NCBI GenBank assembly: GCA_001788015.1
Contig: MFZO01000002.1
Coordinates: forward strand, 6,976 to 46,887
Length of the DNA: 39,912 bases
From: Candidatus Roizmanbacteria bacterium RIFCSPHIGHO2_02_FULL_38_11
GTDB taxonomy: Bacteria > Patescibacteriota > Microgenomatia > UBA1406 > GWC2-37-13
Direction: 5' to 3'
Positions 5,103 to 39,912 of this stretch are shown piece after piece; the stretch's first letter is position 1, and every line of letters begins with the position of its first letter. Under the pieces are notes generated by a model. The model saw nothing but the letters and a program-made list of their open reading frames with translations, was not told the origin of the DNA and searched no databases. The translations under genes and the position numbers were made by a program.

Positions 5103-5115
5103 TAAAATATATAGT
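5103..5115 (+). promoter_or_regulatory. -10 element for the CvpA-CAP gene (leaderless)
   Basis: TAAAAT at 5103-5108, then 7 nt, then ATG at 5116. No Shine-Dalgarno sequence precedes the start. Confidence 0.45.
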
Positions 5116-6111: not shown

Positions 6112-6123
6112 GAAAAATGCCTG

Positions 6124-6152
6124 CCCTGAACAGAACTTGTTCTAGTTCAGGG
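6124..6152. terminator. Palindrome between converging genes, possible bidirectional terminator
   Basis: CCCTGAAC (6124-6131) pairs perfectly with GTTCAGGG (6145-6152), and an inner GAAC/GTTC pair extends the stem. It lies just past the CvpA-CAP stop and near the end of the converging GIY-YIG gene. There is no strong T tract, so it may only be a repeat. Confidence 0.35.
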
Positions 6153-6183
6153 TTCGTCCAGGAATTCACTAATTAAAATATAT

Positions 6184-6217
6184 GTCATTGCGAGGAGCGT
6201 AGCGACGAAGCAATCTC
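6184..6217 (+). repeat. Left arm of family B repeat flanking the GIY-YIG gene
   Basis: GTCATTGCGAGG at the outer end and GAAGCAATCTC at the inner end. It is inverted relative to the arm at 6526-6562. The gene-free version at 11504-11581 carries the same left arm followed directly by a complementary right half. Confidence 0.85.
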
Positions 6218-6218
6218 G

Positions 6219-6512
6219 TTAAAGAATAGTTTTATACAAGTCTTCAAAATATGGATTCATTTTTTTGACAAGTTCTAATTTTTTCTTTCTTGAGCCTGCT
6301 TTAATTTGTTTTTCTCGTTTGATTGTATCATTCACATCTTGGAAAACTTCATAATAAACGAGTTTATTAATATTATATTTCGAGGAAAAACTTGAAACAA
6401 TTTTATTCTTGTGTTGATATATTCTTTTGACTAAATTATTTGTTATACCGGTGTACAAAACAGTGTTTGTTTTGTTTGTGGCAATATAAATAAAGTAATT
6501 TTTAGTGTTCAC
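6219..6512 (-). CDS. GIY-YIG nuclease-family protein
   Basis: 97 residues. The N-terminus has the family signature as FIYIATNKTNTVLYTGITNN (Y-I...Y-T-G), followed by LVKRIYQHK with the conserved Arg, then the YYEVF-x-D, KREKQIKAGSRKKKLELV and MNPYFEDLY blocks typical of the short UPF0213/YhbQ-like group. The Tyr, Arg and Glu expected for catalysis are visible. Start is GTG at 6512, 6 nt after a TATAAT. The gene is almost exactly enclosed by two inverted copies of a repeat arm (6184-6217 and 6526-6562), so it may be the cargo or nuclease of a small mobile unit. Cellular function of this group is unsettled. Confidence 0.85.
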   Translation of the reverse strand: MNTKNYFIYIATNKTNTVLYTGITNNLVKRIYQHKNKIVSSFSSKYNINKLVYYEVFQDVNDTIKREKQIKAGSRKKKLELVKKMNPYFEDLYKTIL

Positions 6513-6518
6513 AATTTA

Positions 6519-6524
6519 ATTATA
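6519..6524 (-). promoter_or_regulatory. -10 element of the GIY-YIG gene
   Basis: TATAAT on the minus strand, 6 nt before the GTG start at 6512 and immediately inside the right repeat arm, so the promoter lies within the presumed element. Confidence 0.5.
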
Positions 6525-6525
6525 G

Positions 6526-6562
6526 GAGATTGCTTCGGCCGAGTCCTCGGCCTCGCAATGAC
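6526..6562 (-). repeat. Right arm of family B repeat flanking the GIY-YIG gene
   Basis: Read on the minus strand it begins GTCATTGCGAGG and ends GAAGCAATCTC, identical at both ends to the left arm at 6184-6217. The middle differs and forms its own small palindrome (GGCCGAG / CTCGGCC). Confidence 0.85.
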
Positions 6563-6575
6563 AGTGAGTAAGATT

Positions 6576-7502
6576 TTAAAATAACCCCATCTGATTTTCG
6601 TTTTTATTTTCGACTTTATTATGTCGTGATTTTTCCTTTTTAGGAGTTAGGGAAAAAAACCTGCTTGCCAAGGACTTCATTCCATATTTCAATAAATAAA
6701 TTTTGAGTTCATCGTTAAATTTTTCAAACTTGGTTTTTTCAATGTTGAATTCGATGGGTACTTTTGTATCTATGGTTGCCAGTTTGTATGACAAAAAAAC
6801 ATTCTCTTTATTTTCTTCCAACGACTTTCTTATTTTCTCATCGACTTCGTTTAAATGAGAATAAATGCCCTTAACTGATTTATACTGTTGCAACAGTTTT
6901 GCAGCTGTTTTGGGACCAATACCTTTGGCTCCGGTATAATTATCGGAAGGGTCTCCCATCAAAGCTTTTAAATCCGGAATTTTATCAGGGTCAAGCCCAA
7001 ATTTTTTTTGCACTTCATCCTTATCATACATTTTGATATCTGAAAGACCAAGCTTGGGAGTGATGACATAAACATTTTTAGCAACAAGCTGTTGGATATC
7101 CCTATCACCAGACAAAATTAAAACTCTAATTCCGTTATCTTTAAATTTTTGTGCAATAGTTCCTATGAGATCGTCAGCTTCAAAGCCGTCTTTTTCTAGA
7201 TGTGTAATTCCAGATTTATCCAAGGCCTCTTTTACCAGAGGTATTTGGGTGATAAAGTCATCTGAAATTTTGGGCCTTTGTGCTTGATATTCTTTAAATA
7301 GTTTATTTCGAAATGTTGGTTTGGGAGTGTCAAAGCAAACTACGATATAATTGGGACGAAAATCGGCTATCGATTTATGAAGCATGGAAAAAAATCCATA
7401 AATAACGTTTGTGGGAATGCCGTCTTTAGTTTTAAAAGGAGGAAGAGCATGAAAGGCACGGTGCATAATAGCGTTGCCGTCTATAAGTAATAGAGTATTC
7501 AT
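6576..7502 (-). CDS. 5'-3' exonuclease, stand-alone PolA N-terminal-type
   Basis: 308 residues beginning LLIDGNAIMHRAFHALPPF, the metal-binding start of the flap-nuclease/Pol I 5'-3' exonuclease fold. Further conserved blocks are VCFDTPKPTFRNKLFKEYQA, EADDLIGTIA, LSGDRDIQQLV and a helix-hairpin-helix region KALMGDPSDNYTGAKGIGPKTAAKLL, which together carry the acidic residues that bind two metals. The protein ends after a basic tail, so the polymerase domain of Pol I is absent. It would remove RNA primers and 5' flaps during lagging-strand maturation and repair. It lies downstream of ftsH on the same strand, separated by a 131-nt AT-rich palindromic spacer, so co-transcription is uncertain. 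Confidence 0.9.
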   Translation of the reverse strand: MNTLLLIDGNAIMHRAFHALPPFKTKDGIPTNVIYGFFSMLHKSIADFRPNYIVVCFDTPKPTFRNKLFKEYQAQRPKISDDFITQIPLVKEALDKSGITHLEKDGFEADDLIGTIAQKFKDNGIRVLILSGDRDIQQLVAKNVYVITPKLGLSDIKMYDKDEVQKKFGLDPDKIPDLKALMGDPSDNYTGAKGIGPKTAAKLLQQYKSVKGIYSHLNEVDEKIRKSLEENKENVFLSYKLATIDTKVPIEFNIEKTKFEKFNDELKIYLLKYGMKSLASRFFSLTPKKEKSRHNKVENKNENQMGLF

Positions 7503-7504
7503 AA

Positions 7505-7632
7505 AACTCTAAACTCTAAATACTAATTTCTAAACAAATACAAAATTATAAAATCTAAAGTTATAAACAATAGAGAAAGTTTTGAATTTAGTATTTAAAA
7601 TTTATTTAGGATTTAGAATTTCGGATTTAGGA
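7505..7632. repeat. AT-rich palindromic spacer
   Basis: The spacer between ftsH and the exonuclease gene consists of low-complexity runs such as CTAAATACTAATTTC on one side and GAATTTAGTATTTAAAAT on the other, which are partly complementary. It resembles the hairpin spacers at 10678-10790 and 12647-12755. No gene is seen. Confidence 0.45.
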
Positions 7633-7633
7633 T

Positions 7634-9508
7634 TTAATTAACTTTAGGCTTTACTCCGACGATTTTTTGAAACTCGTCCCCGTCCAAGCTTTCGGTTTTC
7701 ATCAGGGCTGCTGCTACTTTGTCTAGCATTTCTTTCTTTTCTTTTATTGTCTGGATGGCAACTTGGTATCTTGAAGTAATAATTTTTTTCACTTCCGAAT
7801 CAATTTTAGCCAGCATATCCTGCGAAACGGTATTCTGTTCCCAATATGTTTTACCCCACTCTGTGATATCCATGGTAGGCCCAAAATTGATTGGACCAAG
7901 CTGACTCATTCCATACTCGACGACCATGGCTTTGGCAATTTGAGTAGCTTGATCAAAATCATTTGCCGCTCCGGTTGTGATTTCGTTAAAGATTGCTTCT
8001 TCTGCGGCTCTTCCTCCCATCATCACTGTGATTCGCTCCAAGAGGTTGGTTTTTGTCTCGTGCAGTTTATCCTTTACGGGAGGAATCAAGGTAAAACCAA
8101 GAGCCATTCCCCGAGAAACAATAGAAATTCGATGCACCGGATCTGTATGAGGTAAAAAGTGGGATACGATTGCGTGTCCGGCTTCGTGATAGGCGGTCAA
8201 CTTTTTGTCAAGATCTGACTGCAAACGCTTTTTTTCCGGTCCGAGTTTAACTTTGGTCGCAGCTTCTTCGATATCATCCATAGTAATCTTATCTTTCCCT
8301 TGTCGTGCAGCATAAATTGCCGCTTCATTGAGCATGTTTTCAAGATCTGCTCCCGAGAAACCAACGGTGCGCTTTGCGACTTTTTCCCAGTCCACCTCTG
8401 GGGTGAACGGTTTTCCGTTTGCATGAATTTTTATGATTGCTTTTCTTCCTTCGAGATCGGGAAAGTCGACGATGATTCTTCGATCAAATCGTCCAGGTCG
8501 AAGCAGGGCAGTATCTAAAAGATCGCCTCGGTTGGTGGCCGCCACTACAACCACTTGTTCGTTTGGATTAAACCCGTCCATCTCAACCAAGATTTGGTTC
8601 AAGGTTTGTTCCCGCTCGTCGTGCGATGGCATGACTCCAACAGAGCGCGCCCGGCCAATGGCATCGACTTCGTCTATAAAAATAATCGAAGGCGCACTTT
8701 TTTTGGCCGTGGCGAAAAGATCCCGTACTCGAGCGGCGCCAATGCCAACGAGCATTTCCATGAACTCGCTACCTGCAATTGAGAAAAAAGGTACGCCGGC
8801 TTCGCCGGCTACCGCCTTGGCAAGGAGGGTTTTACCACAACCCGAAGGCCCAATAAGGATTACGCCTTTAGGGGTTCTGGCGCCTAATTTTTTATATTTT
8901 TCCGGATGCTTCAGAAAGTCAACGATTTCTTCCAGTTCTTTTTTCGCTTCATCGACCCCGGCCACGTTGTTAAAAGTTATTTTGGGGAGATCTTTACTAA
9001 AGCGTTTTGCCCTTGATTGGCCAAAAGAAAAGACAGATTCTTGCGCTCCTTTTGCTTGGCGAAAGAGAAAAATAAAAAAGGCAACCATCAAAATAGTAGG
9101 AATAATATTGCTTAAAAAATTGATGATGCCTACAGATCCTTGGGTATCTTTTATGACGACATTTAAAGATGAAGAGTCTATGTTTGCGTCTCTCAGCGTC
9201 TTTAAGAAACTGTCGCCCTGTTCTTTATAGGTTAGAGCGAGTTTATCATTTTTGTAGTAAGCGATGATTTTATTATCTATGATTTCAACCTTCTTAATTT
9301 TTCCTTCTTTTATTTCTTTGATAATCGTCGTAAAAGACTTTTCCGGAAGAGTCTGCTTGATTTCCTTTGAGAGCGAGTTAAAGATGTAATAGACAAAAAG
9401 CCCGACGAAGGCGATAATAAAAACTGTTTTAAGATCGAAGTTAAATTTAAACTCGGCTATTTTTTTAATCGGGCTGCCATTTTTTTTTAGGTTCCTGGAG
9501 TTGGCCAT
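7634..9508 (-). CDS. ftsH: ATP-dependent zinc metalloprotease FtsH
   Basis: A membrane-anchored AAA+ protease that degrades unassembled membrane proteins and regulators. Order of parts in 624 residues: TM1 about 28-45, external FtsH_ext domain about 50-125, TM2 about 129-150, AAA domain with Walker A GPSGCGKT (220-227) and Walker B IIFIDE (275-280), second region of homology ATNRGDLLDTALLRPGRFDRR, then the M41 domain with zinc motif HEAGH (441-445) and the third-ligand region TTGAANDFDQATQ. Two departures from the usual pattern: Walker A is normally GPPGTGKT, and the pore loop reads EMLVGIG where most FtsH have MFVGVG. Start at MANSRN; a poor TATCAA box lies 6 nt upstream. Confidence 0.95.
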   Translation of the reverse strand: MANSRNLKKNGSPIKKIAEFKFNFDLKTVFIIAFVGLFVYYIFNSLSKEIKQTLPEKSFTTIIKEIKEGKIKKVEIIDNKIIAYYKNDKLALTYKEQGDSFLKTLRDANIDSSSLNVVIKDTQGSVGIINFLSNIIPTILMVAFFIFLFRQAKGAQESVFSFGQSRAKRFSKDLPKITFNNVAGVDEAKKELEEIVDFLKHPEKYKKLGARTPKGVILIGPSGCGKTLLAKAVAGEAGVPFFSIAGSEFMEMLVGIGAARVRDLFATAKKSAPSIIFIDEVDAIGRARSVGVMPSHDEREQTLNQILVEMDGFNPNEQVVVVAATNRGDLLDTALLRPGRFDRRIIVDFPDLEGRKAIIKIHANGKPFTPEVDWEKVAKRTVGFSGADLENMLNEAAIYAARQGKDKITMDDIEEAATKVKLGPEKKRLQSDLDKKLTAYHEAGHAIVSHFLPHTDPVHRISIVSRGMALGFTLIPPVKDKLHETKTNLLERITVMMGGRAAEEAIFNEITTGAANDFDQATQIAKAMVVEYGMSQLGPINFGPTMDITEWGKTYWEQNTVSQDMLAKIDSEVKKIITSRYQVAIQTIKEKKEMLDKVAAALMKTESLDGDEFQKIVGVKPKVN

Positions 9509-9520
9509 AATGATTTGATA

Positions 9521-9566
9521 GATCCTTCGACTCCCCCGACGTTTCGTCGGGGTCGCTCAGGATGAA
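9521..9566. repeat. Hairpin repeat between divergent ftsH and tsaC-tsaE
   Basis: GATCCTTCGAC...GTCGCTCAGGATGA frames a perfect 8-bp hairpin CCCCGACG-TTT-CGTCGGGG (9534-9552). It lies between the two divergent genes; a related GATCCTTCGG...CTCAGGAC fragment is at about 4403-4433. Confidence 0.7.
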
Positions 9567-9606
9567 TTGGTCAAATTTCCACCAATTCATTTTAGCAGAT
9601 TTTTGT

Positions 9607-9620
9607 TACAATTGTTAACT
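9607..9620 (+). promoter_or_regulatory. -10 element for the t6A genes
   Basis: TACAAT at 9607-9612, 8 nt before the GTG start at 9621. It fits the leaderless layout and decides the start in favour of GTG 9621 rather than the TTG at 9567 or the ATG at 9651. Confidence 0.4.
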
Positions 9621-10727
9621 GTGAAAATAATACCGTTGGAAAAAGCTAAAATGAGAGAAATTTTAACAGTTTTGAACGCGGGTGGACTGATTGTTTCCCC
9701 ATCTGATACAGTTTATGGATTATTGGCTGATGCAACAAGTGAAAACGCTGTGCAAAAGCTGACGCAATTTAAGAACAGGCCTCCCGGAAAGCCAATCTCC
9801 GTTTTTGTTTCGGACTTTTCGATGCTTAAGGAACAGGTTGAGATTGAAAAAAAACAGCTACGTCTTCTTCAGGAACTATTGCCAGGACCGTTCACAGTAA
9901 TTTTACCCTCAGAGCATAAGGTTTCGCCGCTTCTTGAGTCTGAAAAGCGAACAATAGGACTTAGAATTCCTGACTACCGGTTTATTAAAACATTGGTGAG
10001 AAATTTTGGAAAACCAGTTACTGCAACATCTGCAAATTTAGCTGGACGCTCACCACATTATTCAGTTCAATCGCTACTTAATGAACTTCCAGAAAATAAA
10101 AAAAAATTGATAGATCTTATTGTCGATGCTGGAATGTTGCCAAGAAACAAACCGTCGACGATTGTTGATTTAACCGCTCCACAAATCAAAATCTTGAGAC
10201 AAGGCGACATTGTTTTTAAAGATAAAAAGACTTACATCTCAAAGTCTCCAGCGCAAACAATAAAAATAGCCGCCTTTATTTTGCAGAAAATTTTAAGGGA
10301 AAAAAGTAAAAAACCGTTGATTTTTATTTTAGAAGGAGAGCTAGGGGTTGGTAAAACAGTTTTTGTCAAAGGAATTGGAGAATTTTTAGGCATTAAAAAT
10401 ATTATTTCTCCAACCTACGTTGTTTATTATGAATATGTTTCGATTAATCAATTAATTGAAACATTCGTGCATGTAGATTTATACAATATTCAAGAGGCCG
10501 ATGAATTTAAATATTTAGGTTTGGAAAAGTATCTCAAGAAGGGAAACTTACTGTGTTTTGAATGGGGAGAAAAAGCAGGAGAGATAATAGATTTACTTAA
10601 GCAAAAGGGCAAAATAGCATATGTGAGGATAAGATATATAAGTGAGAAAAAAAGGGAGATTACGATTAGATTTGGTCAATCTCAAATGTCAAAACTGAAA
10701 TCTCAAAACCAAAACTCAAAACTTTAA
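9621..10727 (+). CDS. TsaC (Sua5/YrdC) fused to TsaE
   Basis: A 368-residue fusion of two enzymes of tRNA N6-threonylcarbamoyladenosine (t6A) synthesis. The N-terminal ~205 residues are a YrdC/Sua5 domain (IVSPSDTVYGLLADAT, KFKNRPPGKPISVFV, ATSANLAGRSPHYS), which makes threonylcarbamoyl-AMP from Thr, CO2 and ATP. The C-terminal ~150 residues are TsaE, a P-loop ATPase with Walker A EGELGVGKT, the SPTYVVYYEY and HVDLYNI motifs and CFEWGEKAG. The GTG at 9621 is chosen because the domain begins at VKIIPLEKAKM. The last residues (QMSKLKSQNQNSKL) are encoded by an AT-rich repeat. tsaD follows; tsaB is not in the window. Confidence 0.9.
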   Translation: MKIIPLEKAKMREILTVLNAGGLIVSPSDTVYGLLADATSENAVQKLTQFKNRPPGKPISVFVSDFSMLKEQVEIEKKQLRLLQELLPGPFTVILPSEHKVSPLLESEKRTIGLRIPDYRFIKTLVRNFGKPVTATSANLAGRSPHYSVQSLLNELPENKKKLIDLIVDAGMLPRNKPSTIVDLTAPQIKILRQGDIVFKDKKTYISKSPAQTIKIAAFILQKILREKSKKPLIFILEGELGVGKTVFVKGIGEFLGIKNIISPTYVVYYEYVSINQLIETFVHVDLYNIQEADEFKYLGLEKYLKKGNLLCFEWGEKAGEIIDLLKQKGKIAYVRIRYISEKKREITIRFGQSQMSKLKSQNQNSKL

Positions 10728-10790
10728 ATCTAAAAAAGATTTAAGGATTTAGGATTTGGATTTGACATTAAACATTTGAGTTTTGAGATT
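10678..10790. repeat. Long imperfect inverted repeat, family D copy 1
   Basis: Left arm elements AATCTCAAATGTCAAAAC and CTCAAAACTTTAAATC face right arm elements GATTTAAGGATTT and CATTTGAGTTTTGAGATT. The centre AAATCTAAAAAAGATTT forms the tip. It spans the end of tsaC-tsaE and the gap to tsaD. A sister copy is at 12647-12755 between sufC and sufB. Confidence 0.7.
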
Positions 10791-10795
10791 ATTTT

Positions 10796-11911
10796 ATGTT
10801 GATTCTTGCAATTGATACTTCTGCAGATGAGACTGCTGCAGCAGTAACATCTGAGAGAAAAGTTTTATCAAATGTAAGATATTCCCAAATATTACTTCAC
10901 AAAAAGTGGGGTGGAATTTATCCATCTGTTGCTAAAAGAGCACATGAGGAGAGGATTGATTGGGTGGTTGATGAGACCTTTAAAAAGTTAAAAGTTAAAA
11001 GTGAAAAGTTAAAAGTTGAAGACGTTGATTATATTGCGGTTACGCAAGGACCTGGATTGGCGGTGGCTTTGGAGGTTGGAATCAAGAAAGCTGTTGAATT
11101 AGCCAAAAAATATAAAAAAAAATTAATTTCTGTAAATCATCTTGAAGGACATATCTATTCATGTTTTGTCCAAAACAGCAATGGCAATCCAAAAAGAGAT
11201 TTTAGATTTCCCTATCTCGCACTTATCGTATCGGGTGGTCATACAGAGATAGTTTTATTTAAGGACCAGGTTGATTATAAAGTATTAGGTGAGACAAGAG
11301 ATGATGCCGCAGGTGAAGCTTTGGATAAGGCAGCAAGAATGTTGGGATTTGGATATCCTGGAGGATCGGTAATAGAGAGATTGGCATCGGAAGTCGATAA
11401 CAAGGATTTTTTTAATTTTCCACGCCCGATGATCAAATCAAACAATCTAGACTTTTCTTTTTCCGGTCTAAAGACGTCTTTTTATTATTTTCTTCATTCT
11501 CGTGTCATTGCGAGGAGCAAAGCGACGAAGCAATCTCATTTGAGATCGCCACGTCCCGCCTTTGGCGGGACTCGCGATGACAATAATATTGCGTTGGATA
11601 TACGTCAACTAGCAAGTTCCTTTCAAGAAGCAGTATTTGAAACTTTGTTGATTAAAACAGACCTAGCGATTAAACAGACAACCATTAACAGGATTGTTGT
11701 CGGAGGGGGAGTAATTGCGAATCTATATCTAAGAAAACTGTTGAGAATATTAGTTAAAAAATATAGAGGCGAGGTTTTATTTCCGCCTTTTAAATATTTG
11801 ACTGGAGACAATGCGGCGATGATCGGAGTTGCCGCCAATTATAAAGCAAAAAAAAGATTATTCGTCAAAGACTTTAAGTTGGAAAGAATTCCTCGGTTAC
11901 GGCTTTCGTAG
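10796..11911 (+). CDS. tsaD: tRNA N6-adenosine threonylcarbamoyltransferase TsaD
   Basis: TsaD transfers the threonylcarbamoyl group to A37 of ANN-decoding tRNAs. Visible family blocks are LAIDTSADETAAAV (the usual Cys of TSCDET is Ala here), the metal-binding HLEGH (His115, His119), LIVSGGHTEIV, DDAAGEALDKAARMLGFGYPGG, FSFSGLKTSFYYFL, VVGGGVIANLYLR and TGDNAAMIGVAA. Residues about 237-262 (RVIARSKATKQSH through GTRDD) do not belong to the family: they are encoded by a 78-bp family B repeat at 11504-11581, inserted in frame in a loop after FSGLKT. A second low-complexity insert (KKLKVKSEKLKVED) lies near residue 62. The fold seems intact. It follows the TsaC-TsaE fusion. Confidence 0.95.
   Translation: MLILAIDTSADETAAAVTSERKVLSNVRYSQILLHKKWGGIYPSVAKRAHEERIDWVVDETFKKLKVKSEKLKVEDVDYIAVTQGPGLAVALEVGIKKAVELAKKYKKKLISVNHLEGHIYSCFVQNSNGNPKRDFRFPYLALIVSGGHTEIVLFKDQVDYKVLGETRDDAAGEALDKAARMLGFGYPGGSVIERLASEVDNKDFFNFPRPMIKSNNLDFSFSGLKTSFYYFLHSRVIARSKATKQSHLRSPRPAFGGTRDDNNIALDIRQLASSFQEAVFETLLIKTDLAIKQTTINRIVVGGGVIANLYLRKLLRILVKKYRGEVLFPPFKYLTGDNAAMIGVAANYKAKKRLFVKDFKLERIPRLRLS
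11504..11581 (+). repeat. Family B palindromic repeat inside tsaD
   Basis: Begins GTCATTGCGAGGAGC, has GAAGCAATCTCATTTGAGAT at the centre, and ends CTCGCGATGAC. Exactly 78 bp (26 codons) with no stop in the tsaD frame. The second half contains a secondary GTCCCGCC-TTT-GGCGGGAC hairpin, a substitution inside the right arm. Confidence 0.9.
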
Positions 11912-11926
11912 AGTGAAGAATTGAGG

Positions 11927-11939
11927 TATAATTTATAGC
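11927..11939 (+). promoter_or_regulatory. -10 element for the suf operon
   Basis: A consensus TATAAT at 11927-11932 is followed by 7 nt and the ATG of sufC at 11940. No Shine-Dalgarno sequence and no strong -35. This is the clearest leaderless start on the + strand. Confidence 0.55.
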
Positions 11940-12665
11940 ATGCTAGTATTAAAAAACTTGAGGGTAAAGGTTGGAAAAATGACTATAATTAAGGACATCA
12001 ATTTTAATTTCGAAAAGGGAAAAATGTATGCAATCATGGGGCCAAACGGATCTGGGAAATCAACATTGGCTTTTGCAATTGCCGGACACCCGGCATATAA
12101 GTTAGAGTCCGGAAGTATGAGGTTTGAAGGAAGGAATATTTCAGAGTTGAGTCCAGACAAAAGAGCCAAACTTGGAATGTTCCTTTCATTCCAAACTCCG
12201 CTAGCTCTGTCAGGCATCAACGTTTTTCAACTTCTTCGGATCGCTCTAGCCAATAAAAAAGATCCATTGGCTTTAAAAAAAAAGATTGAGACAATTGCAA
12301 AAAAACTTGGTATTAAGAGTCAACTTGCTGAGAGATCATTAAATGAAGGAGCTTCGGGAGGGGAAAAGAAAAAACTCGAGATGCTTCAAGCTGCGATCCT
12401 GGATCCAAAGCTTCTCATATTCGACGAAATAGATACGGGCGTCGATGTAGACGCGCTCAGGACGATTGCAAAATTCATGAATGAGAATAAAGATGGAAAA
12501 ACTTATATTTTGATTACCCACTACAACAGAATATTACATTACATAAGACCAGATAAAGTGCTGATATTAATGAACGGAAGGCTTATGAAAGTTGGAAGCG
12601 CGAAGTTAGCTGAAGAGATCGAAAAAAGCGGATATGAGAAAATTATGTCAAATGTCAAAAGTTAA
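11940..12665 (+). CDS. sufC: Fe-S cluster assembly ATPase SufC
   Basis: An ABC-type ATPase of the SUF scaffold complex SufBC(D). In 241 residues: Walker A GPNGSGKST (near residue 34), Q-loop FLSFQTP, signature motif EGASGGEKKKLEM (consensus FSGGEKKR), Walker B LLIFDEIDTGVD and the switch His in LITHYNR. The long signature spacing and DEIDTGVD are SufC hallmarks that separate it from transport ATPases. First gene of the suf run (sufC-sufB-sufD-like-sufS-sufU) and served by its own TATAAT box. Its last residues (MSNVKS) and the gap to sufB lie in an AT-rich inverted repeat. Confidence 0.95.
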   Translation: MLVLKNLRVKVGKMTIIKDINFNFEKGKMYAIMGPNGSGKSTLAFAIAGHPAYKLESGSMRFEGRNISELSPDKRAKLGMFLSFQTPLALSGINVFQLLRIALANKKDPLALKKKIETIAKKLGIKSQLAERSLNEGASGGEKKKLEMLQAAILDPKLLIFDEIDTGVDVDALRTIAKFMNENKDGKTYILITHYNRILHYIRPDKVLILMNGRLMKVGSAKLAEEIEKSGYEKIMSNVKS

Positions 12666-31159: not shown

Positions 31160-31166
31160 AGGATTT

Positions 31167-31823
31167 ATGAAGCAAAAATTATTTCTTACTTCCGCCGGTA
31201 TTGTTCGAGAATTAAGAAATGAGTTTGTACAACTACTTGGAAAAGATCCAAAAAATAGCATAGTTTGTTTTATAGCGACCGCAGCCGATCCAGAAAAAGA
31301 TAAAGGGTTTGTCGAGGCTGATAGAAAAAAACTCAGAGAAGCGGGGTTAAAAATAAGAGAACTGGACTTAAAAAGTGAAAATAAAAACTCCTTGTATAAA
31401 AAATTATCCGACTATGATGTTATTTATGTAGGAGGTGGAAATACATTTTATCTATTAAATTGGGTAAGAAAGAGCGGTTTTAAGGAAATAATTAATGATT
31501 TACTCGAGCAAGGTAAAATTTATGTCGGTGCAAGCGCAGGAAGTTATATTGTTTGTCCAACCATCGAGCAAGGATTATGGAAACAGGAGTATCCTGATAA
31601 AGAAACTTTCGGAGTAACTGATTATAAGTCACTAAATTTAGTCCCGTTTTGGATAATTGCCCATTTTACAGAAAAATGGCGGCCTGATATAGAAAAAGCC
31701 GCAAAAACTACAAAAGATCCAATAGTTGCGTTAAACGACAAGCAAGCAGTTTTGGTTAAAGGAGAAAATTGTAAGATTGTGGGGAAGGGAGAAAAATTAA
31801 CTTTTAACATTAATCAATTTTGA
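31167..31823 (+). CDS. Peptidase E-like (S51) serine peptidase
   Basis: About 218 residues from the ATG at 31167; the longer frame from 31104 crosses the promoter. The PepE fold is a class I glutamine-amidotransferase-like sandwich with a Ser nucleophile. Here the nucleophile elbow is GASAGSYIV (Ser123), preceded by VIYVGGGNTFYLLNWV and followed by the His-containing FWIIAHFTEKW and IVALNDKQAVLVKG. PepE enzymes cleave N-terminal Asp dipeptides, while relatives degrade cyanophycin-type or other isopeptides. Its 3' end overlaps the convergent metallopeptidase gene by 14 nt; a shared role in peptide breakdown is possible but only inferred. Confidence 0.8.
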   Translation: MKQKLFLTSAGIVRELRNEFVQLLGKDPKNSIVCFIATAADPEKDKGFVEADRKKLREAGLKIRELDLKSENKNSLYKKLSDYDVIYVGGGNTFYLLNWVRKSGFKEIINDLLEQGKIYVGASAGSYIVCPTIEQGLWKQEYPDKETFGVTDYKSLNLVPFWIIAHFTEKWRPDIEKAAKTTKDPIVALNDKQAVLVKGENCKIVGKGEKLTFNINQF

Positions 31824-33078
31824 CAAAACTCCGTGATCGCGTAAAAATGTCAATCATTTTCCAATATTTCGAAAATTTAGAAAACTTATTAACAGGAATT
31901 TTTCCTAAAAATAACAACAGTGTAAGAAATTCGTTATTTGTGATTTTGACTCTATCCTTTAGTCGCTCAATTTCCTCGTTTGCAAATAAATACATTCCTT
32001 GATATCCATCAATAAAAATGGAAGTCATGATTGCTTCGTCGAATGCAAAATCGCCTAATCCCACTGATTGGTATATCTTCATTACATCAAAAATAGTCTT
32101 TCCTTTTATATGGTACAAATAGTCAGCCATAGCTCTGCACATTAGCCATACATTTCTTCGATATTCTACAAATTTCTCTTCTTCTTTACTAATAAACGGT
32201 TCTACCATTAAATCAGCAAAAACTTCTGCTTTTACATCAAAAATATTTGGTGATGATACGCCTGCGTAGCCAAAAATTTTAGGTAATTTATATTTCTTAA
32301 TTAATGTTCCGTCAAAAATAGCCATTTCAAGGGCGTGACCACAGAATTCGTGAAGAAATGCGATTTTTAATAAAGATTTACTATATTTTCTATTTTTATT
32401 TAAGAGTATCTTAGTCGCTAGTGTTTTAGGATCTGTTATACAGCGCATAGAAAAAGAAGGATCATCGATTATTTCGACTTTTGCAGTAAATTCATGCAGG
32501 ATGTCTTTTTTAAATTTATTAGGGAATAATATTACTTTATCTATCTTTTTTTTAATATTTTGCATTGACGTTTGGATAATTTTAGTTGCCTCGCTTGGAA
32601 GTAATTCCTGTCTTCCTAACTCTTTTCCTATTTTTCCTATTTTCGGATTACTGAATAGATTCTTATATCTTTTTTCAACATTAGAATAATCGTAATTAAG
32701 GTTAAAAAAATCCTCTCTCAATTTTATTGTCGATTTAAAATTCTTAGATTTTAATTGTTGAAGTATCTGTATTTTGATTACTGCCGTTTTTATTGTGGCG
32801 TTAACTACATCGAGTAAAAATTTGGAATAGATAGAATGATTAAATGACACTTTTTTTGTTTGTAACTGCTTATTTAGGTGTTTTAATTGTTCTAAACTTT
32901 TTTCTAAGTTACTTGGAACATCATACTTCCACAAAGTCCGACTTTTGTTATTCTCTAATAGTCTCTTTCTTTCTAACTTCCAGTTTATAGGCGTTCTTAC
33001 AACCTGATTGTAGATTTTATATACATCCAGGCTTAAATTATTTATCTTATTAATAAGTTCCAAATGTAATTTGTTCAT
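31810..33078 (-). CDS. HExxxH metallopeptidase-like protein (DUF885/MATCAP-like, distant)
   Basis: 422 residues, mostly helical, no signal peptide. The likely zinc motif is FLHEFCGHALEM (His243, Glu244, His248). The 3-residue gap between HE and H (HExxxH rather than HExxH) is known from the DUF1704/MATCAP group, which includes the tubulin tyrosine carboxypeptidases. A candidate third ligand is Glu285 in DVKAEVFADLMVEP. The C-terminal order (...RAMADYLYHIKGKTIFDVMKIYQ...GDFAFDEAIMTSIFIDGYQGMYLF) also recalls DUF885/M32 carboxypeptidases. Last of a three-gene operon with a GCS2-like ligase 6 nt upstream. The family assignment is by motif and is distant; a carboxypeptidase acting on a ligase product is inference. 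Confidence 0.6.
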   Translation of the reverse strand: MNKLHLELINKINNLSLDVYKIYNQVVRTPINWKLERKRLLENNKSRTLWKYDVPSNLEKSLEQLKHLNKQLQTKKVSFNHSIYSKFLLDVVNATIKTAVIKIQILQQLKSKNFKSTIKLREDFFNLNYDYSNVEKRYKNLFSNPKIGKIGKELGRQELLPSEATKIIQTSMQNIKKKIDKVILFPNKFKKDILHEFTAKVEIIDDPSFSMRCITDPKTLATKILLNKNRKYSKSLLKIAFLHEFCGHALEMAIFDGTLIKKYKLPKIFGYAGVSSPNIFDVKAEVFADLMVEPFISKEEEKFVEYRRNVWLMCRAMADYLYHIKGKTIFDVMKIYQSVGLGDFAFDEAIMTSIFIDGYQGMYLFANEEIERLKDRVKITNNEFLTLLLFLGKIPVNKFSKFSKYWKMIDIFTRSRSFVKID

Positions 33079-33084
33079 AAGAGA

Positions 33085-34449
33085 TTAAGCTTGTAAAGCT
33101 TGTCGATTTAGTTTATTTAGTACCACAATTATAGCTTCTTGCCTACTGTAACCTTCCTTTATCAATTTTCTAACAATCTTTCTGATTGAATTTCCTTGAG
33201 ATATTCCAATGAGAATATCACTTTCAAGTGGGTCTAAAAAGTCTTTAGATAAAAGTTTCATGCCCCTCTTCTTTAGAGATTCTCGAGCAAGCTGAATTAA
33301 ACTAACAGCCGCATCTTGTATAGTAGTAGTGCGCTTACCCCACTGCAAAGGAGCATATAGACCGAATACCGCCTTTTGAAAATTAGTTTTAGATTGCTCA
33401 AAACTTGGTAAGACATGATTCCTTAATCCTTCTATAGCTCCAAATGTCAAAACTAATGCCTGTATGGTTGTGAAAGGTGATTGCGAGTCTATTTGTCTAA
33501 TTTCATTACGCACAGTTCCATTTTCGATATCAACTCGGATGCGTGATGTTGTGTGAATTGCGCTGTGAGCCAAATCCAATGCTAGCGCTGGATTGTGCAA
33601 TTCTATAAATGGCGGCAAAGTATTTCTAAGTTGATTTTGGTAGTATTCCAATAAAGAAAAAGCAGGAAGAGGTAAACCAGCTCTCAGCTGTTCGGCTTGC
33701 CTCAAAAGTTCTATTCTTGTATTAACTCTTCCTGTGTCCATTCCTCCGGCAAATATAGAATTACCAAACAAAGCAACCATAATAGGCGTTACAGCAATTA
33801 AAATATTATGTGTTTGTAAGGCGTCTTTTATCGTACAATCAGATATGTGAATTTGCGTTCCTGAACATCTTGTCATTGCGGTTAAGTTTGATGCTGGTTC
33901 GATCAATTCTTTGCCTGTTTTTGGATTAACAACCCGAATTATTTTAATCGGATTTTCCTCTAATGTTCTTTTTTCCATCAAATCATATCGTTTTCGTTTG
34001 ATTTCATCTTTTACTATCAAATCTCTTGCTTCCTCTGAAGTTGAAAATGGTTGCAAACCTATAGGAACTATAATCGTGTCAGGTTTTAATCCTCTTAATC
34101 CTGCCTGTATTTGTTGTGTTCTACGTGTCATTGATTTATAGAGGGATAAAATTCCATCCGCAGTTAGAGAGGTAATTCCATTTGCGTCGAATTCGATATT
34201 GAATACGGTAGTGTCTGGTCTAGCGCCTATTGAGTTGGTTGAGAAATAATCTTGCACATCAATTGGCCTACCGGTATTACTATCTAAGGCTTGGACTTCC
34301 TGTTCGATATCACAAGTACGGCCTGGCTTATTAAAATATCTTTTATCTGCAAGTACTTGCCGCTTTACAGCTTCTTTAAGAGCTAGTTTTTTTGTTTCCA
34401 ATGCTGAAGATTCAGTCCATCGACTTTGTTGTTTTATTTCTGTCGCCAT
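33085..34449 (-). CDS. GCS2-like carboxylate-amine ligase
   Basis: 454 residues. Motifs of the glutamate-cysteine ligase type 2 (YbdK/COG2170) fold in order: TCDIEQEVQALDSNTGRPID (48-64, an acidic metal-binding start), VFNIEFDANGITSLTADG, IIVPIGLQPF, KRYDLMEKR, CSGTQIHIS (195-203), and PIMVALFGNSIFAGGMDTGRVNTRIEL (222-248), which in true GCS2 reads NSP-x-x-G-x-DTG-x-x-S-R. Such enzymes form amide bonds with ATP. The substrate need not be glutamate plus cysteine. An ideal AGGAGGT lies 7 nt before the ATG, unlike the leaderless genes around it. It sits 5 nt after the 1070-aa gene and 6 nt before the metallopeptidase gene. Confidence 0.75.
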   Translation of the reverse strand: MATEIKQQSRWTESSALETKKLALKEAVKRQVLADKRYFNKPGRTCDIEQEVQALDSNTGRPIDVQDYFSTNSIGARPDTTVFNIEFDANGITSLTADGILSLYKSMTRRTQQIQAGLRGLKPDTIIVPIGLQPFSTSEEARDLIVKDEIKRKRYDLMEKRTLEENPIKIIRVVNPKTGKELIEPASNLTAMTRCSGTQIHISDCTIKDALQTHNILIAVTPIMVALFGNSIFAGGMDTGRVNTRIELLRQAEQLRAGLPLPAFSLLEYYQNQLRNTLPPFIELHNPALALDLAHSAIHTTSRIRVDIENGTVRNEIRQIDSQSPFTTIQALVLTFGAIEGLRNHVLPSFEQSKTNFQKAVFGLYAPLQWGKRTTTIQDAAVSLIQLARESLKKRGMKLLSKDFLDPLESDILIGISQGNSIRKIVRKLIKEGYSRQEAIIVVLNKLNRQALQA

Positions 34450-34454
34450 AGAAT

Positions 34455-37400
34455 TTACCTCCTTGGCCTTGCAAAAGCCATCATTTTAACTTCAAATTTA
34501 GGCGCAATAGTGCCGTTGTTATCGGCTACAAGAGACAGTATATTTGGCTGAACTATTACTCCCGATACTCCTCTCAAATAAAGCTCTCTTAATTTTTTAA
34601 CAATGAAAGCCCTGCGCATTTCTTCACTATGTAGAACACTAGCTGGAATTGGGTAAGCTGAAATTACCTCGCCCGCAATTCTTTCACGCCCTGGTATTTT
34701 ATCTCCTGTTTTTACAACTACTCCAAAAAAATCAATTTCTGGATATGCTGCTCTATTGGTAACCATAAATTCAGTTATTTCATCGCTAAGGGTATCAAAA
34801 TTACCTTTTCTAAGATCTATATCCAAAAAGGGGATTGGATCAATTCCAAATTGCGCTAACTCATCTCTCATCATTTCCACAATGCGCAAATTAACTCTTT
34901 TATCAGAAGCAACTATTCTAGAGCTATTTAATGGTGTCATTACAACGCCGTCTGGTAATCTTAGGAATAAATCACCTCGATAACCTGCCCCCCTACCTTC
35001 ATTTGGAAATGTGAATCTTTTTAGTATAGTGTCAGGTTGTATAACCGTTCCTTTTAATGTTGGTACGCCTAGTTGAGAAGCGCCTGACTCCAGCGATGTT
35101 TGGAGTAATTCTAGGGTTGAAATGCCAACATCAGACATATCTCTTTGCCTCAAAGCTTGTTCTGCCGGAAGATACTCAAAATTCATAAGTGTTAAGTCAG
35201 CTGATCGAGGCGCAATCACTGCTCTTCTTGGCGGTTTTCCTAATCTTGCTTCTGCTGCGCCTAATACCGCATCTAAATATGACTCCATGTGGCCTGAAGG
35301 TTTGCCTAAAAATCTTCTTGCTAAAAATTCAGTTATGCCTACTCCCCCAGCTCCTCCAGAAATATCAAATACTGAAGCTCTCATAATTCCTTCCCTTGTG
35401 AGTTCACTTAGTTCATCTCTCATTCCTTCCAGACTGCCCGTTTCGATAAATGTCTCGATCATTCTTCGTCTTACATCAGGCGGGTAAAGCAAGAAAAAAT
35501 CCATCTGTAATACTTCCCTTCCTGGGTTGCTTACAGCTGTAGGCCTCATTAAACTCGGTAAATTATCTTTAATAAAATCTGTTGCTTCCTCTACTGCTAT
35601 ACGTTTTCTACCTGTTGCAATTAATGTTTCTTCAAGATTTGCTGATACAGTATCAATAGCTTCGGTAATGACTCGGGTTGCTTTAGGTAAATTTGCACTA
35701 AACGGTCTGCCGATTACTCCCATTAAAGGGGATATACGAACAGAATTTTTAAAAACTCTTTCGCCATATCTTTCCTGCGTAGAGATATCTTCACCCTTTG
35801 AGGCACCCATACTTGTTTCTAAACCATCCACATCATCTCTTAATACAAATAGGGGAGAACCTGCTAATTTGCTTCCTGCGCCTCTACCAACAATGGAAAA
35901 AATCATTTCCAATTTTCTTTCTGGCGGGTATAGTCTAAAAGTAGAATCGTCAAAATAAGGAGCGAATTCTGATGTTTGTATGGCTGCTTCCAAGTCTTCT
36001 AATCTTTGTAATGGGGCAAGGGCGATGCCAAATCGTAATAAACTTTCTGCTGAAACAAGTTGACATTTTCCTGTAGTTATAGAGGGTATAGTGAACTCAT
36101 ACTCTTTAGCCTTTGTTTCTAGATCCACAGAATCAGCCCTTACAATCTTTGTTGGAGTGTTTTTTTTGTTTTCTCCAACTGATTCTAAAATTTCGTCAGC
36201 AACATCAAATAATGAATATGGATCATTAATTAAACGTCGAAAATCTAAACCCAATGATTGAATTGCTCGATCTACAACTTCTTGACTAAATTCTCGTAAA
36301 ATGGAGCGAAAAAGTTTTTCGGCAAATAGTTCTAAAATTTCCTCGTCTGTGATTCCAGCCCCTAATTTTTTTTGCAATTCTTCCTTGGCTAGAGCAAAAA
36401 GAGCTTTATTTTCTGCGCTCATTCTTCTTCGGAAAAAATTAGGAATTCTCGTTCTAATTAATTCAAATTCTCCTACGCTTAATTGAGCCATAAAAAGAAA
36501 TGGGTCGCCTGATTCTAATGCTTGGATTAATTTTTGTCTTTTTTCTTCAAATATTTTTTTAAAATTTGGAAAAGTAGTAAATCCAAGTCTCATCAATTTT
36601 CGGCTCGAAGTATCAATGAGTTGACTCGCTATTCGTGACCTTACTTTTACACCCTCATCGTCTTTCAATGCAAGAATTTCCTCTTCAGTTAAGCCACTAA
36701 TTTTTGTCGCCATTCCTCGCAACTCATGATCTGATAACATAAGTCCAGCTATTTTTCTGATGGCCCTTCTTTTTACAATTGCATCTATAACTTCGGCTTT
36801 TCTTTGTTCGATATTTTGTCTTAATTGTTCTCTGGCGTCGGGTAGTCTATCTGCAAGTCCGCTTTCTTCAATAATTCTGTACAATTTGCTATCTAACTCT
36901 GAAAATTCTCTTTCTTCTCCTTCGATAACTTCAATGACCTTTGTTTCTTTAAGCTTGGCCATTTTTCTTTGGATAATTTCATTTTTTAATCCGTCTATTT
37001 GGTCTGCGTTACGTCTACGGCTTGCCTCGAAAAGCTGCACTTGAGCTTCAGATCTTGCTAAATCTAATAGTCCAGCAACAGTTTGCGGATCTTCCAAAAA
37101 CTTGCTGATTAATTCATCCTCTAATAGCCTTAACACTTGCTCTAATAAGATAAAATTTTCTGCCAGTTTTTCACTATTTTTTTTTGCTGGTATTTGTTCT
37201 CTGACTTTTGCTGAGATTTCTTTTAAGACCGTTAAACCTTGTCTTGTATCTGGCAATGTAATTTGCAAGTACGGTTTTAACCTTTGAGCACAAGGAAATG
37301 AAATTGCTAGGGCAATATCTATCAATTCATCTAATTTCGCTTGACCTGATTGAACTTGTCCTACAGGAAGAATGTCGATTCTTGTAGAAACTTTAGACCC

Positions 37401-37667
37401 GTTAAGTTTACTAGCTTGTAATTCTAATCCGGCATTTTTTTTCCTTTTCAATCTTGGAACTAAAGCTAAGTCACCGTCGGTGACAAAGTCCAGCACAGGA
37501 ACGCTCTTCAGAATAGAATTAGTGATAACTGGAAATGTTCCAGGGTTGTCATCTAATGCGATCTGACCTAACTGTTGAGATAAAGTTACAACAGTATTCG
37601 TAAATAGCTGTCGTTGTTGTTTATCATTTACTTGTGATTCTGATGATTGCCCTTGTTTTTCTGTCAT
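34455..37667 (-). CDS. 1070-aa protein of unknown family, first gene of an attenuated operon
   Basis: Not recognised. There is no signal peptide or membrane segment. Residues about 150-560 are rich in charged helices (e.g. EQVLRLLEDELISKFLEDP, REQLRQNIEQRKAEVIDAIV). A Gly-rich stretch DISGGAGGVGITEFLARRF lies near residue 770. The last ~230 residues have a mixed alpha/beta pattern (FFGVVVKTGDKIPGRERIAG ... GVSGVIVQPNILSLV ... KFEVKMMAFARPRR) that faintly recalls the core of ATP-grasp ligases (Lys-containing strand, a VxQ-like strand, basic strand), but no decisive motif is visible. Being first in an operon with a GCS2-like ligase and a metallopeptidase, it may be a second ligase or the modified substrate. 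Its expression is gated by the terminator 25 nt upstream. Confidence 0.75.
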   Translation of the reverse strand: MTEKQGQSSESQVNDKQQRQLFTNTVVTLSQQLGQIALDDNPGTFPVITNSILKSVPVLDFVTDGDLALVPRLKRKKNAGLELQASKLNGSKVSTRIDILPVGQVQSGQAKLDELIDIALAISFPCAQRLKPYLQITLPDTRQGLTVLKEISAKVREQIPAKKNSEKLAENFILLEQVLRLLEDELISKFLEDPQTVAGLLDLARSEAQVQLFEASRRRNADQIDGLKNEIIQRKMAKLKETKVIEVIEGEEREFSELDSKLYRIIEESGLADRLPDAREQLRQNIEQRKAEVIDAIVKRRAIRKIAGLMLSDHELRGMATKISGLTEEEILALKDDEGVKVRSRIASQLIDTSSRKLMRLGFTTFPNFKKIFEEKRQKLIQALESGDPFLFMAQLSVGEFELIRTRIPNFFRRRMSAENKALFALAKEELQKKLGAGITDEEILELFAEKLFRSILREFSQEVVDRAIQSLGLDFRRLINDPYSLFDVADEILESVGENKKNTPTKIVRADSVDLETKAKEYEFTIPSITTGKCQLVSAESLLRFGIALAPLQRLEDLEAAIQTSEFAPYFDDSTFRLYPPERKLEMIFSIVGRGAGSKLAGSPLFVLRDDVDGLETSMGASKGEDISTQERYGERVFKNSVRISPLMGVIGRPFSANLPKATRVITEAIDTVSANLEETLIATGRKRIAVEEATDFIKDNLPSLMRPTAVSNPGREVLQMDFFLLYPPDVRRRMIETFIETGSLEGMRDELSELTREGIMRASVFDISGGAGGVGITEFLARRFLGKPSGHMESYLDAVLGAAEARLGKPPRRAVIAPRSADLTLMNFEYLPAEQALRQRDMSDVGISTLELLQTSLESGASQLGVPTLKGTVIQPDTILKRFTFPNEGRGAGYRGDLFLRLPDGVVMTPLNSSRIVASDKRVNLRIVEMMRDELAQFGIDPIPFLDIDLRKGNFDTLSDEITEFMVTNRAAYPEIDFFGVVVKTGDKIPGRERIAGEVISAYPIPASVLHSEEMRRAFIVKKLRELYLRGVSGVIVQPNILSLVADNNGTIAPKFEVKMMAFARPRR

Positions 37668-37691: not shown

Positions 37692-37717
37692 TAAAAAAAC
37701 CTCCCTTGCGGGAGGTT
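37692..37717 (-). terminator. Intrinsic terminator of the attenuator
   Basis: On the minus strand AACCTCCC-GCAA-GGGAGGTT, a perfect 8-bp stem with a GNRA tetraloop, is followed by a run of T. It stands 25 nt before the ATG of the 1070-aa gene, downstream of the leader-peptide stop, so it would cut off transcription of the operon unless the left arm is sequestered. Confidence 0.9.
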
Positions 37718-37743
37718 AGTATTAATAAATCTAAATTGTCTTT

Positions 37744-37833
37744 TTATCTCATAATTAGGTCAACAAAAATACCAACCTCCCCAGAGAGGTGATGATAATG
37801 ATACCAATTGGTTCGGTTGGTAAGTGATTTCAT
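37744..37833 (-). CDS. 29-aa leader peptide with a Trp-Tyr-His-Tyr-His-His run
   Basis: ATG at 37833 lies 7 nt after a consensus TATAAT, so the transcript begins at or near the start codon. The peptide reads MKSLTNRTN, then WYHYHH (codons 10-15), then LSGEVGIFVDLIMR and TAA at 37744-37746. The codon run for Trp, Tyr and His lies just 3' of RNA segment 1 (codons 5-7) and just 5' of segment 2 (codons 18-21), the geometry used by trp/his-type attenuators. The expected role is in cis: stalling at scarce charged tRNA (or by another ribosome signal) shifts RNA pairing and lets transcription pass the terminator. Confidence 0.75.
   Translation of the reverse strand: MKSLTNRTNWYHYHHLSGEVGIFVDLIMR
37771..37821 (-). 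promoter_or_regulatory. Attenuator pairing segments 1 and 2 (antiterminator switch)
   Basis: Minus strand: segment 1 ACCAACC (37815-37821) pairs with GGTTGGT inside segment 2 GGGGAGGTTGGT (37771-37782). The GGGAGGTT of segment 2 can instead pair over 8 bp with AACCTCCC, the left arm of the terminator. The two pairings exclude each other. Stalling at codons 10-15 would cover segment 1 and free segment 2 to disrupt the terminator. Confidence 0.8.
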
Positions 37834-37840
37834 TGTTTTT

Positions 37841-37868
37841 ATTATAACAGGATTTTTCTTGCTGTCAA
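37841..37868 (-). promoter_or_regulatory. Consensus promoter of the attenuated operon
   Basis: TTGACA (37863-37868 on the minus strand), a 16-nt spacer, and TATAAT (37841-37846), both perfect hexamers. This is the best promoter in the window. It begins 9 nt after the rarA stop. Confidence 0.9.
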
Positions 37869-39175: not shown

Positions 39176-39912
39176 TTATAATAAACCCATTTTTTCTCTT
39201 ACTTCCTTCACCGTTTGGGAGGCAATTGTACGAGCCTTTTCAGCGCCTTCTTTGATTACTCTGTCGACATATGATTGATCAGATTCAATTTTTTTTCTTC
39301 TTGTCTGAAAAGGTTGGAGATCTTTATAAATTGATTCAGCTATAGAATCTTTTAATTTAACAAATTGAAGTGTTCCGTCATTGAATTCTTTTTTATATTT
39401 TTCAACTTCGTTTGGAATATAAAGTTCGGCAAATTTATAAAGAGTTTTTACGCCTTCGTTCATCTCTCCACCGGCCTGAGTTGCGGTTGGAACTGAGCGA
39501 ACCTTTTTCTTTATTTCGTCAAGTGAGTCGGTTAGATTAATATAGCTTCCTTCAACAGATTTGCTCATTTTACCTTCACCTTTTAAGGAAGGAATATATT
39601 CGCCTTTTGTTGCGAATCTTTTTGGTTCTGGGAAGTCAGTTGCGTAAAGCTGATTCATCTTGCGGGCAATTTCTCGAGCAACCTCAAGGTGTGGTTCTTG
39701 GTCTATGCCAACTGGTACCAGCCCGGCTTTATAAACCAAAATATCAGCGGCCATGAGAATAGGATAATTTAATAAAGCCATAGTATTGTGGGTTGGGTAC
39801 TGTTTAACTTTCTCTTTATATGTGGGTAGGTGCTGCATGCGGGCAATAGTTGTAACCGACGAAAAGTAAAAAGCCAACTCAAAATGCTGGCTGACTTCTG
39901 ACTGCTGAAAGA
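39176..39912 (-). CDS. trpS: Tryptophanyl-tRNA synthetase (5' partial)
   Basis: About 245 C-terminal residues; the frame runs off the window edge. Codons before the first in-window Met read FQQSEVSQHFELAFYFSSVT, matching the TrpRS block QS-x-V-x-x-H-x-ELA, so the true start lies outside. Class I features: NYPILMAADILVYKAGLVPVGIDQEPHLEVAREIARKMN (tryptophan and adenylate pocket) and the KMSKS loop in GEGKMSKSVEGSYI. It charges tRNA-Trp. It lies upstream of rarA on the same strand and thus not far from the Trp-containing leader peptide, though a regulatory link is only speculative. Confidence 0.95.
   Translation of the reverse strand, partial: FQQSEVSQHFELAFYFSSVTTIARMQHLPTYKEKVKQYPTHNTMALLNYPILMAADILVYKAGLVPVGIDQEPHLEVAREIARKMNQLYATDFPEPKRFATKGEYIPSLKGEGKMSKSVEGSYINLTDSLDEIKKKVRSVPTATQAGGEMNEGVKTLYKFAELYIPNEVEKYKKEFNDGTLQFVKLKDSIAESIYKDLQPFQTRRKKIESDQSYVDRVIKEGAEKARTIASQTVKEVREKMGLL

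Follow-up and report, generated by a model that had tools for sequence, protein, structure and literature searches.

The stretch of DNA considered here (39,912 nt; positions 6,976–46,887 of the forward strand of contig MFZO01000002.1, assembly GCA_001788015.1; hereafter, the window) comes from a Roizmanbacteria-type genome of the candidate phyla radiation (CPR; class Microgenomatia), 1.24 Mb in size and 98% complete. It carries a three-gene operon that we interpret, with a probability of about 0.5, as an ATP-dependent amide-ligase/amide-hydrolase module placed under ribosome-mediated attenuation and turned on in aromatic amino-acid shortage. The regulatory evidence is the strongest for this interpretation. 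It is not yet settled how ultra-small CPR bacteria acquire amino acids and ration them, and a conserved aromatic attenuator on a ligase/hydrolase operon offers a concrete handle on this question: the attenuator points to the likely trigger (uncharged Trp, Tyr, Phe or His tRNAs), and the operon to the probable chemistry, the formation and cleavage of amides, in a module amenable to in vitro reconstitution. CPR bacteria would, moreover, have a conserved attenuator that senses amino acids; a search of open-access papers for this combination found none.

The operon and its aromatic leader

As first described, three tightly packed open reading frames (ORFs) lie on the minus strand (37667–34455, 34449–33085 and 33078–31810, separated by 5 and 6 nt) and encode, in transcription order, proteins of 1070, 454 and 422 aa. 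The operon and its leader region comprise the following features:

37841..37868, minus strand: sigma-70 promoter TTGACA-16-TATAAT, 12/12 consensus matches, conserved in the congener L001
37744..37833, minus strand: leader peptide ORF MKSLTNRTNWYHYHHLSGEVGIFVDLIMR with a W/Y/H cluster, kept in four independent 1070-type loci and in genomes G432 and G508
37768..37782, minus strand: antiterminator 5' arm GGGAGGTTGGTATT, 14-bp pairing with 37723–37710
37710..37723, minus strand: antiterminator 3' arm AATACTAACCTCCC, overlapping the terminator 5' arm
37698..37717, minus strand: intrinsic terminator stem AACCTCCC-GCAA-GGGAGGTT and T run, dG -13.7
34455..37667, minus strand: 1070-aa protein, N-terminal domain of ~500–580 aa shared with G331, G369 and G388, C-terminal half without detectable relatives
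33085..34449, minus strand: 454-aa GCS2-like carboxylate-amine ligase (PF04107), motifs E49/E51, E86, H201, R245, R303 and R305
31810..33078, minus strand: 422-aa HExxxH (HEFCGH) protein, putative zinc hydrolase by motif, with a weak C-terminal DUF885 match (E=0.18)

The Trp/Tyr/His attenuator suspected at the outset was confirmed as a leader ORF (37833–37744) followed by a terminator (37717–37698), an arrangement conserved far beyond this genome. The leader of the congener keeps NWYHYH, and the differences in its first hairpin preserve pairing. At the same place, upstream of distant relatives of the 1070-aa gene, we found leaders in G331 (MNINYSNNYWFFFHPLQREAVL), G369 (MKRFSNNFWYHYHPLNRGVVTVALKKV) and G388 (MNTFVLNSFFWHRYFRSNAAVFGALRMK); a TTGACA promoter and a terminator are present in each case. 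Thus, in every one of the four independent 1070-type loci, a leader rich in Trp, Phe, Tyr and His is combined with a terminator and with an antiterminator that can form in its stead. Other CPR groups contribute two GCS2 loci with the same three elements: in G432, the leader MENNISQNNLFFDFWFYNRLSPA precedes the GCS2 gene of a pair formed with a gene for an M20 amidohydrolase, and in G508, the GCS2 genes have the leader MEQQKYTFTYWFSFRLLSGKGTFVATRG.

When 355 genes in 30 loci were screened for a leader plus terminator, five 1070-type copies, the G432 GCS2 gene and one unrelated gene were returned. The recovery of 5/5 1070-type copies is partly by design, because the criterion was set after the first leaders had been seen; this does not apply to the G432 match. 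None of 500 dinucleotide shuffles passed the screen for any of six regions. For each of the seven copies, the RNA that a ribosome at the Trp codon leaves unoccupied is predicted to fold into an antiterminator that sequesters the 5' arm of the terminator (dG -22 to -31, z -2.7 to -7.2), so that, in these computed folds, the two structures are mutually exclusive. Neither a T-box nor any other riboswitch of known type was found at these related loci, and no Rfam family matched the attenuator. Since the order of residues varies while the aromatic composition is kept, the leaders probably sense charged tRNAs rather than act as fixed arrest peptides, and the operon would be on when aromatic and His tRNAs are uncharged.

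The closest copy of the operon, with identical gene order, is that of the congener, Candidatus Roizmanbacteria metagenome-assembled genome L001, whose proteins are 95.8, 97.1 and 97.3% identical to those of the window; its third protein ends at 413 residues, versus 422 in the window. Ratios of nonsynonymous to synonymous substitution (dN/dS, computed from dN and dS) of ~0.34, ~0.34 and ~0.10 for the 1070-, 454- and 422-aa proteins are low, which indicates that the genes are kept as proteins by purifying selection. A genome-contig scan with a single-protein query returned the congener as the sole genome, and no relatives were found in viral contigs, plasmids, phages, PADLOC or PHROGs.

Several neighbours may be mentioned here. 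A convergent gene for an S51 peptidase (PepE/cyanophycinase-like; 31164–31823, plus strand) shares 14 nt with the end of the 422-aa gene, and L001 has an ORF at the matching place and in the matching orientation beside its operon. The window genome holds a second ligase/peptidase operon (L040, G000:C31:28000-42000, 5111–11997), which encodes a 477-aa protein, an M20 enzyme, a 493-aa CP_ATPgrasp_2-like protein (E=1.8e-5), a 383-aa AlaDH/PNT-like protein and a 483-aa paralogue of the first protein (49% identity). Elsewhere in the window, a glmS ribozyme (RF00234, 71.7 bits; 4312–4512, minus strand) is located upstream of a 589-aa ORF.

The three proteins and their relatives

The 454-aa protein matches GCS2 (PF04107) with E=3.3e-4 and 20.5 bits against a curated cut-off of 21 in hmmscan, and with 21.4 bits against the same cut-off in the search of the genome with its neighbouring stretches. 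Judged by sequence, the assignment appears borderline but real; the best NCBIfam and PDB neighbours are all glutamate-cysteine or carboxylate-amine ligases, and a mixed CPR GCS2 profile matches the structures of plant GCL and E. coli YbdK (1e-8 to 3e-5). The GCS2 motifs noted earlier were recovered, with IEQEVQALD / IEQEVQALDSNTG (E49, E51) as ExE and NIEFD (E86) as the second Glu; these three residues were assigned by manual comparison with GGEFEM, GIEAEF, SNEVEF and similar motifs at other loci, because automatic alignments do not agree with one another around the N-terminal motif. The later motifs, QIHIS (H201), R245 and RIRVD (R303, R305), align with other CPR GCS2 proteins, R245 and R303 being invariant across 11 CPR proteins. 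The protein is only ~17–22% identical even to these CPR relatives, bears an extra N-terminal extension and a C-terminal tail and, within the order of the host, was found in the congener only.

The HExxxH motif of the 422-aa protein is likewise present, as HEFCGH at residues 243–248, and D281/E285 downstream of it are candidate third ligands of what would be a zinc site. No family match above cut-off was obtained. DUF885 (PF05960) reached E=0.18 and 11.8 bits against a cut-off of 32.4, in the C-terminal part only, and no DUF885 genes were found in 137 genomes of the class; there was no M20 (PF01546) match either. The earlier proposal of a DUF1704/MATCAP-type peptidase is not supported, for the protein gives no PF08014 match (E<=1) and has neither an EEG nor a QEGLA motif, the latter being a form of the DUF1704 third-ligand motif. 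A genome-wide search for DUF1704 was also empty, though its controls were likewise silent. In the MATCAP family, EEG is the third-ligand motif beside HExxxH (PMC10499314).

No Pfam or NCBIfam match was found for the 1070-aa protein. The N-terminal 500–580 residues have homologues (E down to 3e-35) in three genomes that belong to a different Microgenomatia family. Within the class, this domain was seen in those genomes only (G331, G369 and G388; family f5), with no other occurrence among 380 sampled genomes of the phylum. For the C-terminal half, no relative was detectable. The end of the ligase-like protein of G331 shows a weak similarity to circularly permuted ATP-grasp (E=0.15). Homology among the 1070-aa protein, the 548/559-aa proteins encoded upstream of GCS2 genes and GCS2 itself received no hhalign support.

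In all three distant relatives, an M20 gene stands next door to the 1070-type gene or one gene away. It lies directly 3' in G369; in G388, the order is 1070-type gene, S-Me-THD (DUF917) gene, M20 and trpS; in G331, the 1070-type gene crosses a contig end, and contig C20 opens with an exact 16-aa overlap, followed by M20 and, a few small ORFs beyond, trpS. The M20 proteins of G331 and G369 are 46–53% identical to GCS2-adjacent M20s of G210, G329, G069 and G334, and this similarity links the 1070-type protein to GCS2 modules. A trpS gene occurs in the neighbourhood of three of the four 1070-type loci (window 39176–39910; L039 2534–3541; L011 4233–5258), upstream with RarA in the window and downstream in G331 and G388.

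The S-Me-THD gene of G388 (thiohydantoin desulfurase-like; L011 2087–3139) contains, in its N-terminal half, a stretch similar (BLAST E=6e-4) to the C-terminal end of the protein encoded before it. Upstream of the 1070-type genes of G331 and G388, there are genes for ATP-citrate-lyase-like ATP-grasp, CoA-ligase-like and citrate-synthase-like proteins (L012 1348–5089 and L009 3583–6865), the latter two named by eye.

Pairing of GCS2-like ligases with M20 hydrolases

A GCS2 family search of 329 genomes of the class gave nine loci besides the window, all nine with an M20 gene within 3 kb. This pairing was set as a prediction before three further GCS2 loci, from a search of the order, were inspected (G031, G044 and a second GCS2 gene of the congener at G005:C23), and M20 was found within 3.3 kb in 3/3. 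Overall, 12/12 GCS2-like loci in the searched Microgenomatia, window-type copies left out, lie 0–3.3 kb from an M20 amidohydrolase gene. Genomes hold 1–5 M20 genes, and we estimate chance co-location at ~2% per locus; the loci are related by descent, and a joint chance figure is therefore not a probability. The pairing recurs in several GCS2 subfamilies and with no fewer than three M20 clades.

The module M20s are ArgE/DapE-like, and their surroundings vary, with enolase-superfamily, decarboxylase, aminotransferase and GNAT genes as partners. An enolase-superfamily gene lies between or beside GCS2 and M20 in five Microgenomatia modules (G210, G329, G214, G031 and G044); the G210 protein, the only one scored, matches the o-succinylbenzoate synthase/N-succinylamino-acid racemase model TIGR01928 at 8e-105. 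This partner suggests that the conjugate is racemised in some modules. In enolase-containing modules, a family of 500–560-aa proteins without a Pfam match (L048 6210–7715, L030 4348–5994 and L034 8739–10418) is encoded directly upstream of GCS2. In L032, L033 and L034, which represent three families, genes for a trigger factor and a DUF5660 protein lie upstream of the GCS2-M20 module (called by Pfam for L032 and as BLAST homologues for the others).

The window operon is the sole type in which we saw both the 1070-type and the GCS2-like proteins, and it lacks M20; the HExxxH protein stands at the usual M20 position and may be its functional replacement. Co-occurrence across genomes, as foreseen by the original prediction, therefore holds for the ligase–hydrolase pairing and fails for the exact trio, which is otherwise known from one congener alone (two near-identical genomes, one lineage). 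In the same way, the idea of a ligation/removal operon survives as a ligase/hydrolase operon, owing to the GCS2-M20 pairing across Microgenomatia, and loses its DUF1704/MATCAP-type component.

Function, alternatives and known systems

We suppose that poorly charged Trp tRNAs (with Tyr and His; Phe in relatives) would stall the ribosome in the aromatic cluster of the leader, allowing the antiterminator to form and the three genes to be transcribed; otherwise, the terminator would halt transcription. GCS2 enzymes form a phosphorylated carboxylate, which is then transferred to an amine. Accordingly, the 454-aa enzyme would use ATP to activate a carboxylate and join it to an amine, plausibly that of an aromatic amino acid; characterised GCS2 enzymes act on the gamma-carboxyl of glutamate, which is probably the group used here as well. 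The 1070-aa protein might be a partner of the ligation step, and the 422-aa protein, at the position held by M20 in related loci, may hydrolyse an amide of that kind. The simplest joint reading would be conjugation and deconjugation of ring amino acids, whereby available forms are captured or converted and free L-amino acids released; in this way, the organism would likely gain a means of capturing, holding, converting or releasing ring-containing amino acids that it probably cannot make. What the sequences show is the gene set, the GCS2 motifs, the joint location in several genomes and the layout of the attenuator; zinc chemistry, substrate, direction of the cycle and physiological role are all conjectural in this scheme.

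Several observations weigh against it. No relatives of the 422-aa protein beyond the congener were found in 350 genomes of the class, and because of this, its enzymatic role rests on the motif. AlphaFold2 models were of low confidence, with a pLDDT (predicted local distance difference test score) of 38 for the 422-aa protein, from two sequences, and of 36 for the 454-aa protein, from 11 divergent ones. An ATP-grasp identity of the C-terminus of the 1070-aa protein, suggestive by eye, received no support from profile similarity to CP_ATPgrasp or to the G369/G331 tails: hhalign scored 10.9, versus 11.3+-1.9 for shuffles, and there was no Pfam match. Outside the class, M20 accompanies only three of eight GCS2 loci (G525, G432 and G518); there, the G437 locus has a GATase-type C26 hydrolase, and G508 has tandem GCS2 genes. 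None of the other Microgenomatia GCS2-M20 modules checked has an aromatic leader, which means that the substrate may differ between modules. Finally, ligation and hydrolysis by the products of a single operon could cancel each other in a futile cycle.

A rather unlikely alternative is that the operon serves the synthesis of a small aromatic peptide or of a metabolite derived from amino acids (a dipeptide or short polymer), with the hydrolase trimming the product or protecting the producer and attenuation matching production to precursor supply. GCS2-like and other amidoligases do serve small-peptide synthesis, and both the second operon of the host (two paralogous uncharacterised proteins, M20, CP_ATPgrasp_2-like and AlaDH-like) and the variable partners beside GCS2-M20 would suit such a pathway. 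However, an operon that is on when aromatic tRNAs are uncharged does the opposite of what a consumer of these amino acids needs, and it contains no transporter or export gene.

We consider it unlikely, too, that the module performs D-to-L or racemising salvage, by analogy with the N-succinylamino-acid racemase pathway: the ligase would acylate an amino acid, a racemase act on the conjugate and an M20-type hydrolase release the L-form, the window type being a reduced version without the racemase. The enolase-superfamily genes of five GCS2-M20 loci, with the TIGR01928 match of G210, and the ArgE/DapE-like M20s speak for it, but most modules lack a racemase, and in the window genome, the sole weak match fits enolase itself.

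A cycle of protein tagging appears improbable. Here, an amino acid or short tag would be attached to a protein by the ligase and taken off again by the HExxxH enzyme, much like in pupylation and depupylation or in the detyrosination of tubulin. GCS2 and the Pup ligase PafA do share one carboxylate-amine ligase superfamily (PMC2588565), and HExxxH is present in TMCP/MATCAP (PMC10499314). Against this stand the missing PF08014 match and EEG motif of the 422-aa protein, the lack of a small conserved tag gene in the operon and the usual partner, M20, which is a family of small-substrate hydrolases. Lastly, we regard it as very improbable that the leader responds to a translation inhibitor rather than to amino acids, with the operon inactivating an inhibitor that contains an amine by forming an amide. 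Leader-peptide attenuators also control resistance genes, and the operon is patchily distributed, but the leaders keep an aromatic composition without a fixed order, a pattern more in keeping with a sensor of tRNA charging than with drug-dependent arrest, and no PADLOC or PHROG match was obtained.

Returning to the attenuated ligase/hydrolase module, it is tempting, if clearly tentative, to extend it to a hitherto undescribed CPR family of aromatic-responsive modules in which both the ligases (GCS2, possibly ATP-grasp-like, the 1070-type protein) and the hydrolases (three M20 clades, GATase-type C26, the HExxxH protein) would be interchangeable, serving a conjugation-based economy of ring amino acids in hosts unable to make them.

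Among known systems, the GCS2 ligases (PF04107; YbdK, plant GCL, EgtA) resemble the 454-aa protein in the borderline Pfam match and the active-site ExE, second Glu, His and Arg motifs; it differs from them in its low identity and terminal extensions, and its partners are not glutathione genes. DUF1704/TMCP-MATCAP proteins (PF08014) share HExxxH with the 422-aa protein, which lacks their profile match and EEG/QEGLA motif. As in the LysW and N-succinylamino acid racemase pathways, ligation or acylation would be followed by release through an ArgE/DapE-type M20, with a racemase in some modules; unlike them, the window operon has no carrier protein, succinyltransferase or M20, and its ligase is GCS2-like. 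The neighbourhoods of the PafA/GCS2 superfamily also place an ATP-dependent ligase beside a hydrolase, and the GCS2 and GATase-type pair of G437 matches pairs described there (PMC2588565), whereas our loci have M20 (relatives) or the HExxxH protein (window), CPR hosts and an aromatic attenuator. Finally, the leader shares with the trp, phe and his attenuators its richness in the residues presumably sensed and the competition of antiterminator and terminator; unlike them, it lacks an Rfam match, mixes Trp, Tyr or Phe and His in one cluster and controls an amide-ligase operon in CPR bacteria.

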